A stretch of 64,000 bases of DNA, taken from positions 9,465 through 73,464 of the forward strand of contig NZXU01000092.1 of NCBI GenBank assembly GCA_002698425.1. Direction: 5' to 3'. The DNA is from Ahrensia sp. (GTDB lineage: Bacteria > Pseudomonadota > Alphaproteobacteria > Rhizobiales > Rhizobiaceae). Each line of letters begins with the position of its first letter. Within the stretch, counting starts at the first letter, position 1. Under the pieces are notes generated by a model. It made no database searches and had not been told where the DNA came from. It was given only the letters and a program-made list of their open reading frames with translations. The translations under genes and the position numbers were made by a program. Shown one piece after another: positions 60,364 through 61,722 of this stretch.

Positions 60364-60409
60364 TTGGGTGCGTCGGCTTCATGCGCGGGCTCAAGCCCAA
60401 TCCACCCCG

Positions 60410-60458
60410 CCGTCATCCCTGTGCTTGTCACAGGGGTCCATTCCGGTAACGTCTCCGG
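60410..60458 (+). repeat. GTCATCCCTGTGC repeat, copy A
   Basis: CCGTCATCCCTGTGCTTGTC, then ACAGGGGTCCATTCCGG and GTCTCCGG. It is nearly identical to copy C (61041-61090), and the similarity continues into the first codons of a GIY-YIG gene (60459 on). Confidence 0.9.
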
Positions 60459-60478
60459 ATGGGGCGCGTGGGCTACGC
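60459..60478 (+). pseudogene. 5' remnant of a GIY-YIG gene
   Basis: ATGGGGCGCGTGGGCTA encodes MGRVGY, matching MRRVGY at the start of the intact GIY-YIG gene at 61091, together with the repeat ahead of it. Homology then stops, and the DUF6979 gene follows. It looks like the left edge of an old copy of the same unit. Confidence 0.6.
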
Positions 60479-60499
60479 GTTAAAAATGGAAGGCGGGAT

Positions 60500-60883
60500 A
60501 TGGGCAAGTATGGTCAAGCGGCCGTTTATGCAGTGGAGCTTGTCGCCAAAGACTGCAACCTTTTGCCTAGAGATGCGTGGTTGCAAGCTGTGCAGCTTGT
60601 CTTTCCCGATCATGAATCTTCGAGAGCGAAAGGGTGTCCAAAAGCCGCGTTTCTGGCACTTTGCGAAACGGGTTCGATCCGCCACATTCCAGCGGGGAAT
60701 TACACCACTTCCATCTCCAACAAAGCGGATGTCCTGCGAGGGTTTGTCGCTCTCCGCGATAATCCATCGCTTTGCTCGGACCAAGCGCGCCTTTGGTCGA
60801 TAGCCGTCGAAGGAAGGTCCAAAGTGCATAATTCGCAGATGGATGTTCTTACGGCGCTTTTTGAAAGCGGCCTTCTGACATAG
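60500..60883 (+). CDS. DUF6979 family protein
   Basis: 127 aa. The family pattern is clear: MGKYGQAAVYAVELV at the start, RAKGCPKAAFLALCETGSIRHIPAGNYT in the middle, and KVHNSQMDVLTALFESGLL at the end. Function unknown; members are scattered in distantly related bacteria as single accessory genes. GGAAGGCGGG precedes the ATG. It is bracketed by copies A and B of the same repeat in opposite orientation. Codon use is more AT-rich than the chromosome core. Confidence 0.8.
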   Translation: MGKYGQAAVYAVELVAKDCNLLPRDAWLQAVQLVFPDHESSRAKGCPKAAFLALCETGSIRHIPAGNYTTSISNKADVLRGFVALRDNPSLCSDQARLWSIAVEGRSKVHNSQMDVLTALFESGLLT

Positions 60884-60894
60884 TAATTCGCCTG

Positions 60895-60937
60895 CTCTGG
60901 AATGGATCCCTGTGACAAGCACATGGATGACGGCGGG
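60895..60937 (-). repeat. GTCATCCCTGTGC repeat, copy B (inverted)
   Basis: CTCTGGAATGGATCCCTGTG, ACAAGCACATGGATGACGG. It is the reverse complement of copy A with few mismatches, on the other side of the DUF6979 gene. Confidence 0.88.
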
Positions 60938-61040
60938 GAGGGGAAGCAGGGGAGCTTGCTGGATGCTCTTTCGGCCTGCCGCTGATTCTTGAGGCGCCTA
61001 TGGCGCGGGTGTCGGCGATTGGCAGTATGGCCCACCGCTG

Positions 61041-61090
61041 GCCGTCATCCCTGTGCTTGTCACAGGGATCCATTCCGGTAACGTCTCCGG
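61041..61090 (+). repeat. GTCATCCCTGTGC repeat, copy C
   Basis: GCCGTCATCCCTGTGCTTGT, then CACAGGGATCCATTCCGG and CGTCTCCGG, running straight into the GIY-YIG start codon at 61091. CCCTGTG and CACAGGG pair, so the unit folds as a hairpin. Confidence 0.92.
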
Positions 61091-61381
61091 ATGAGGCGCG
61101 TGGGGTATGTCTACATCCTGGCATCGAAGAAGGGCGGGACGCTCTATACCGGCGTCACGAGCGATCTGGCGCGGCGCATCTATGAACATGAGATCGGTTA
61201 CGGCTCGAAGTTCACCGCGCGGTACGGGGTGAAGCGGCTGGTCTGGTTCCAGGAGTATGACGAAATCACCGAGGCGATCCGGCGCGAGAAGACGATCAAG
61301 AAGTGGCCACGCCAGTGGCGCGTCAACCTGATCGAGGAGAGCAATCCCGTCTGGAACGATTTGCGGCGGCTGTTGTGGTGA
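61091..61381 (+). CDS. GIY-YIG nuclease family protein
   Basis: 96 aa. VGYVYILASKKGGTLYTGVTSDLARRIYEHE holds the two motif tyrosines (VYI and YTG), the catalytic Arg (ARRIYEH) and later EAIRREKTIKKWPRQWRVNLI with the metal-binding Glu. It is the small UPF0213-like type that occurs in many copies in alphaproteobacteria. The start codon abuts copy C of the repeat, and copy D lies inverted 37 bp after the stop. Enzymatically it should cut DNA, but targets of this family are unknown. Confidence 0.92.
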   Translation: MRRVGYVYILASKKGGTLYTGVTSDLARRIYEHEIGYGSKFTARYGVKRLVWFQEYDEITEAIRREKTIKKWPRQWRVNLIEESNPVWNDLRRLLW

Positions 61382-61417
61382 GAGTGGCTGGCGGCTTTGG
61401 GCGGGTGTCGCGGCGGT

Positions 61418-61459
61418 CTCTGGAATGGATCCCTGTGACGAGCACAGGGATGACGGAGG
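61418..61459 (-). repeat. GTCATCCCTGTGC repeat, copy D (inverted)
   Basis: CTCTGGAATGGATCCCTGTG, ACGAGCACAGGGATGACGG; reverse complement of copy C, 37 bp after the GIY-YIG stop. Confidence 0.92.
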
Positions 61460-61561: not shown

Positions 61562-61722
61562 TCTTGACGGTCAAGAATATGCACTCGTAAAATCGCGCTT
61601 GCGCGAACGCCTCTTAGGCGGGATCGCCAAATATTCTTTCAAAGGTCTATCAACTAGCTGCTTGGCGATCCCGCCTAAGAGGCGTTCAGGCCTGCATTTG
61701 AAGGCTTTAGCCTTCAAATGCA
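61562..61722. repeat. Mosaic of three perfect palindromes
   Basis: (1) TCTTGAC/GTCAAGA at 61562-61576. (2) A 26-bp perfect inverted repeat, arms 61605-61630 and 61662-61687 with a 31-nt loop; the left arm starts GAACGCCTCTTAGGCGGG. (3) TGCATTTGAAGGC (61693-61705), loop TTTA, GCCTTCAAATGCA (61710-61722). The surrounding 61460-61845 is AT-rich and contains no convincing gene; open frames across it are palindrome artefacts. It resembles rhizobial mosaic elements (RIME) or a MITE. Confidence 0.9.

Follow-up and report, generated by a model that had tools for sequence, protein, structure and literature searches.

Within the 64-kb stretch of DNA analysed here (the window), two small genes each lie between inverted copies of one palindromic repeat. 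The palindrome, ATCCCTGTG-N5-CACAGGGAT, was found four times in the window at up to 3 mismatches (at 60415, 60906, 61047, and 61429), against a chance expectation of 0.01 estimated from shuffles. The copies, designated A to D, are perfect in the case of C and D and carry one mismatch each in A and B, and B and D are inverted relative to A and C. With the bases at both ends included, copy A occupies 60411-60440 on the forward strand with its CGTC tag outward and copy B occupies 60903-60932 on the reverse strand, the mismatch of each lying in the stem (repeat alignment, motif search, and folding); between them is a DUF6979 gene (60500-60883, forward strand, 127 aa; PF22399, E = 1.5e-38), whose protein also matches the phage family phrog_5039 of unknown function. 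Copy C (61043-61072, forward strand) reads CGTC, ATCCCTGTG, CTTGT, CACAGGGAT, CCA, and its inverted partner D (61426-61455, reverse strand), of the same layout with a 5-base loop, also has its tag outward (motif search and folding for both); the two enclose the gene of a 96-aa GIY-YIG nuclease (61091-61381, forward strand). When folded as single strands, C and D form a 9-bp hairpin with z of about -5; the value is -3.6 for A and -1.3 for B, the weakest of the four.

Copies A and C are 96% identical over 67 nt (60409-60475 versus 61041-61107), and copy A therefore continues as a ATGGGGCGCGTGGGCTA nuclease stub, i.e., MGRVGY from 60459. The segment 60409-60475 on the forward strand is the 5' end of a second nuclease unit, equivalent to C plus the nuclease leader (repeat alignment and direct reading). 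The initial annotation had placed the four copies correctly within a few bases, and its description of the two enclosed genes, of the inverted partners, and of copy A running into nuclease codons agrees with what we found. The neighbour of the units is uvrD, whose protein is 91% and 86% identical to those of two Oricola-group genomes, so that the window belongs to this genus or near it. Beside the uvrD 3' end, at 61605-61687, two perfect inverted arms of 26 nt enclose a loop of 31 nt.

The nuclease protein

The window nuclease is a member of the GIY-YIG superfamily, as judged by its match to PF01541 (E = 8.3e-17) and its conserved residues: Y8, Y19, R29, H33, E66, and N85 are invariant in 26/26 aligned sequences. 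The conserved Tyr, Tyr, Arg, Glu, and Asn of GIY-YIG enzymes (Y8, Y19, R29, E66, and N85 here) are catalytic. The nearest fold to its predicted structure (pLDDT 94) is that of Slx1, a branched-DNA nuclease. PADLOC, searched for a defence role, gave no match for the nuclease or the DUF6979 protein, and an NCBIfam search gave no match. A homing endonuclease in an intron or intein was considered and rejected, since the gene sits between other ORFs and is bracketed by REPs.

The palindrome as a CGTC-type REP

The window palindrome is a CGTC-type REP with a CGTC tag, a 9-bp stem, a 5-nt loop, and a CCA tail; in copies C and D the tag is unpaired at one end and the stem is ATCCCTGTG. In the account of Di Nocera, De Gregorio, and Rocco (2013, PMC3733652), CGTC REPs have the tag CGTC, TGTC, or CCTC, a stem of 8-9 bp starting with AT, a loop of 4-5 nt, and mostly a CCA tail, and are found mainly in alphaproteobacteria with dimers predominating; the window REPs agree in tag, stem length, AT stem start, loop length, and tail. 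The same account describes the CGTC superfamily as seemingly without a dedicated transposase and reports no association with transposase genes, and GIY-YIG has no mention in it (0 occurrences of 'giy').

Bracketing of the nuclease genes

A gene was called bracketed when the inverted-repeat score between the 350 bp on either side of it was at least 20. In a first set, consisting of the best 80 of 92 confirmed nuclease relatives in public genomes plus the window, 53/81 were bracketed versus 3/243 random intervals of the same loci. Because this set had been picked by similarity to the window, an even class sample was also used, in which 49 of 142 alphaproteobacterial genomes had a match and 98 loci were read (all listed matches except four further copies in Oricola G001, which were handled separately). 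In the main clade of this sample (at least 80 bits, 82 members), 45/82 nucleases were bracketed versus 5/297 control intervals; among other ORFs of at least 80 aa in the loci of both sets the count was 7/582. Nuclease matches were also present in 110/198 Bacteroidota genomes, and at 30 loci, one per genome with the best-scoring genomes taken first, 13/30 were bracketed versus 1/234 control intervals. By the same measure 37/82 alphaproteobacterial and 17/30 Bacteroidota nucleases are unbracketed. The enclosure of GIY-YIG genes by inverted pairs beyond chance, a check proposed with the initial annotation, is borne out by these relatives (45/82 versus 5/297), and the nucleases are often multicopy in alphaproteobacteria, in line with that annotation, 27 sampled genomes having at least two copies.

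Seven nuclease copies in plasmid-collection records were scored individually. Those of Neisseria (65) and Aeromonas (24) have CGTC REPs on both sides; Sinorhizobium meliloti scored 34, Planktothrix 25, and Spirosoma 20 (no tagged REP by the detector); Rhizobium tumorigenes (11) and Photobacterium (10) each have a REP dimer on one side only. In Ahrensia kielensis the sole nuclease found is bracketed by two of the genome's three strict REPs.

A sister GIY-YIG clade with a weak profile match is accompanied by another palindrome, often TCATCCTGAGCTTGTCGAAGGATGA-like (L201, L203, L204, L207, L209, L210, L212, and L213), and 8/12 of its whole copies score at least 20, the 12 being 16 weak rows minus four main-clade fragments.

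The tag was also found de novo, by scanning both strands within 300 bp of the nucleases for maximal hairpins (stem 8-10, loop 3-8). Near the 82 alphaproteobacterial nucleases there were 221 hairpin readings versus 29 in total in 82 distant intervals, and the 4-mer most often preceding them was CGTC (47), with TGTC there 24 times; several others end in TGG, which is the CCA tail read from the opposite strand. At the Bacteroidota loci (83 readings) TGTC (24), ATGG (13), and CGTC (12) lead. Strict tagged REPs stand on both sides of 17/82 alphaproteobacterial nucleases versus 0/410 controls and of 11/30 Bacteroidota nucleases versus 2/150, a two-sided count much below that of inverted repeats. The tags of the alphaproteobacterial REPs face outward in the majority only (22/33 upstream and 25/43 downstream).

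Copy numbers and unit ends in Oricola

Six Oricola genomes were compared. A type-1 nuclease, 95% identical to that of the window, is present in G001 and G011 and as a decayed stub in G009, of which the leader and first codons remain; DNA like copy A is found in these three genomes only. Type-1 REPs are few. A type-2 nuclease (55-60% identical to the window nuclease) is present in five of the six genomes, and these five carry 10, 16, 17, 10, and 21 type-2 REPs (CGTCATCCTCGGGCTTGACCCGAGGANCCA, up to 2 mismatches), i.e., 10-21 per genome; G013, the sole genome of the six without a nuclease match, has 0. Of these REPs, 23/74 are no farther than 150 bp from a type-2 nuclease or a fragment of one, with 0.012 expected, which speaks against repeats scattered independently of GIY-YIG genes, and 10/12 of the type-2 nucleases or fragments are bracketed. 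Eleven tag-out REP dimers stand elsewhere in the Oricola genomes, including five in G009 that share a 54-bp spacing.

Seven type-2 units (three in G001 and two in G010) were aligned at their boundaries; the script had been given eight, and L101 was left out as the motif did not find its ends. Inward of the two tags, identity over 40 bases is 94% and 88%; beyond them it is 30-44%, and the unit therefore ends at its CGTC and GACG tags. One of the seven is internally deleted to 300 bp with both ends kept. By eye, no target-site duplication was seen in the flanks of the seven units.

Two further observations were made by eye. At L095, L101, and L108 foreign palindromes lie inside REP loops or halves, which suggests that REPs are targeted by other small elements, and in Oricola indica a diverged piece of sequence like the 3' end of uvrD is found left of the nuclease unit (L001, 3800-3930).

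Pairing of nuclease type and REP type

The 27 sampled genomes with at least two copies, weak clade included, allow the two arms of a nuclease gene to be compared with those of other copies in the same genome. Own arms score at least 20 in 41/76 cases and cross arms in 16/230, and the own pair exceeds every cross pair in 36/41. One Rhizobium genome (G008) has two nucleases, one with the stem ATTCCTGTG/ATGCCTGTG and the other with ATTACCGGG/ATTACCGCC. The alphaproteobacterial genome G136 contains 11 family matches, 10 of them of the main clade, with differing flanking palindromes; its own pairs score at least 20 in 5/11, and one upstream arm fits another gene's downstream arm better (36). The G136 loci are L120, L146, L148, L150, L152, L158, L162, L165, L173, L178, and L206. 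Nuclease identity correlates with stem identity (r = 0.53, genome relatedness not removed) in a set of 55 units, from which identical genes and units lacking a strict matched REP pair were dropped, 0/2000 permutations being as high; three pairs at 30-40% nuclease identity run counter to the trend with alike stems.

Presence and absence of units

In the gap between fnrL and a response regulator gene on Sphingobium plasmids, the full unit is present in 4/9 of the records read, a lone palindrome with a tag at each end in 2/9 (one degenerate), and no REP in 3/9, one of these three having another repeat. The count leaves out three records that are 100% identical over the query to one of the four unit-bearing ones, and the direction of change is unrooted. 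One of the four nucleases, that of TomTYG73, is frameshifted. A deletion between the direct ACCCCGGG copies of the two REPs would leave just such a double-tagged palindrome. Other palindromes with two tags, or halves of dimers built in this way, were seen at L243, L250, and L255, as if a REP pair had collapsed via deletion between stem copies.

The clean empty sites that the initial annotation had called for were sought in relatives and did not turn up: a base-perfect empty site with its target sequence was not found at the places compared in Oricola, Sphingobium, Rhizobium tumorigenes, and Sinorhizobium. The uvrD 3' place holds other sequence in Oricola G010, G012, and G013, and the place corresponding to L093 is without a unit in G012, with another repeat present. 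Rhizobium tumorigenes has no inverted pair (score 11) and no clean empty site nearby among the 40 records listed of 252. At the Sinorhizobium hflX-mazG place the nuclease is kept in all three records read and the number of upstream REP dimers varies; a REP dimer on pSymB is kept in S. medicae and absent in K101 and NGR234, which have other sequence there.

The DUF6979 unit

In the window, DUF6979 stands at the nuclease's place, after the 67-nt nuclease leader, and A-DUF6979-B may perhaps be a second unit of the nuclease type in which the nuclease body was replaced by another gene. The initial annotation had proposed that the unit can pick up cargo. A-DUF6979-B is the one example behind this idea; DUF6979 is rare (2/385 alphaproteobacterial genomes) and no CGTC REP was found near either of those two genes, so that DUF6979 as general cargo is unsupported. 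At one of the two (L261) the gene lies between long G-rich inverted repeats unlike CGTC REPs, with a score of 60; the other locus scores 11.

Nearly as probable as not, in our estimate, is a different history without cargo capture, in which DUF6979 was the earlier occupant of the site and a nuclease unit that inserted beside it later decayed. A decayed unit of leader and first codons does exist in Oricola G009, and the two DUF6979 loci elsewhere are both without a CGTC REP, as this order of events would have it; against it are the inverted relation of A and B, with DUF6979 filling the nuclease's place, and the six Oricola genomes, which gave no DNA match to this gene. In Oricola G011 the segment B-spacer-C is recognisable by eye without A or DUF6979.

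Discussion

We consider it likely that C-nuclease-D is one transposable unit ending at the CGTC tags of two inverted REPs, and that the GIY-YIG protein serves this REP type as its dedicated enzyme, in the way that RAYT (TnpA-REP) serves GTAG REPs. This reading rests on the bracketing, on the tag-to-tag ends at unlike flanks, and on the match between the type of a nuclease and that of its REP, and further on the co-absence of the two (one genome of one genus), the presence and absence of units on plasmids, and the occurrence of REP dimers without a gene. In the mechanism that we propose, the nuclease would recognise its CGTC hairpin together with the unpaired tag, in a single strand or a cruciform, and would cut the hairpin at its base; the REP pair would then be copied to new places by host repair or replication, whether or not the gene goes with it. 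The cutting, the copying route, the joining of strands, and the movement or maintenance of REPs by the nuclease are inferred from comparative analysis.

Coincidence between the genes and terminator-like or chance palindromes has a negligible probability: REPs in general are indeed found for the most part downstream of coding sequence (Di Nocera et al. 2013, PMC3733652), but 5/297 intervals and 7/582 ORFs against 45/82 nucleases, together with 23/74 Oricola REPs where 0.012 were expected, refute it. It is also unlikely that the protein is a host or selfish enzyme for maintenance, resolving hairpins and cruciforms, with its own REP pair regulating or protecting its gene. The fold closest to its own is that of a structure-specific nuclease of branched DNA, for which hairpin REPs would be a natural substrate, and the cognate pairing would hold under such a function too; maintenance alone, however, predicts neither tag-to-tag units in dissimilar surroundings (one genome has three of the seven) nor presence and absence between related plasmids. 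We give the same low probability to a selfish nuclease gene that inserts in or beside REPs moved by something else, with the repeats as its target in the manner of a homing endonuclease. We know of no strand joining by a GIY-YIG domain, a point in favour of such a passenger gene, as is the apparent insertion of other elements at REPs (the loops at L095 and L108, judged by eye). A generic target, on the other hand, would not require the match of a gene's own arms or a REP type that tracks the nuclease type, and Oricola G013, the one genome without the nuclease, has no type-2 REPs.

No link of GIY-YIG proteins to palindromic repeats was found in the open-access literature searched, preprints being outside its scope and earlier work possible; as far as that literature goes, a GIY-YIG counterpart of RAYT for CGTC REPs is real, general, and unreported. 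A broader proposal, for which we see the chances as evenly balanced, is that small GIY-YIG proteins are REP-mobilising enzymes of a second class, independent of HUH enzymes, that each has a CGTC-tagged palindrome of its own, and that the class extends through alpha-, beta-, and gammaproteobacteria and Bacteroidota to still other groups. The CGTC superfamily, probably with the rhizobial mosaic elements and the repeats of Neisseria among its members, would then be explained by these enzymes, and TCATCCT..AGGATGA-like palindromes by the sister clade. If this is true, enzymes of two unrelated folds have each given rise to the REP way of life, and a function would be assigned to many small genes whose annotation says no more than GIY-YIG nuclease or excinuclease ABC subunit C. 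CGTC REPs are widespread and were reported as seemingly without an enzyme, and a pairing of one nuclease with one repeat makes their origin directly testable.

Comparison with known systems

RIME are described as intergenic repeats of Sinorhizobium and its relatives (PMC2573895). The 116-bp dimer of pSymB contains two CGTC-type palindromes. Rhizobial CGTC-type dimers are presumably RIME-like.

The UPF0213 proteins (1zg2 and 1ywl) and the GIY-YIG domains of Slx1, UvrC, and I-TevI have the fold and the GIY-YIG core in common with the window nuclease and are distant from it in sequence (16-32% over the aligned part). To our knowledge, none of them has a role with repeats.

The closest parallel is with the GTAG REP/RAYT systems (REPtrons and REPINs), in which TnpA-REP recognises both the GTAG tag and the palindrome (PMC8266576). 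The enzyme there is an HUH Y1 transposase with the tag GTAG, whereas the system described here has a 96-aa GIY-YIG nuclease, a CGTC or TGTC tag, and a CCA tail; of the features of a REPtron, the inverted bracket of cognate REPs is found here, and the HUH Y1 enzyme and the GTAG tag are not. RAYT is usually single-copy, unlike the nuclease here, which is often multicopy. The likeness to REPIN/RAYT systems noted in the initial annotation is well supported in the sense that the one works like the other, given the bracketing far over controls in alphaproteobacteria and Bacteroidota and a repeat type that tracks the nuclease type. In both systems a nuclease gene is flanked by inverted tagged palindromes, each enzyme is matched with a REP type, dimers of the REP are also scattered apart from the gene, and an unpaired tag stands beside the stem.
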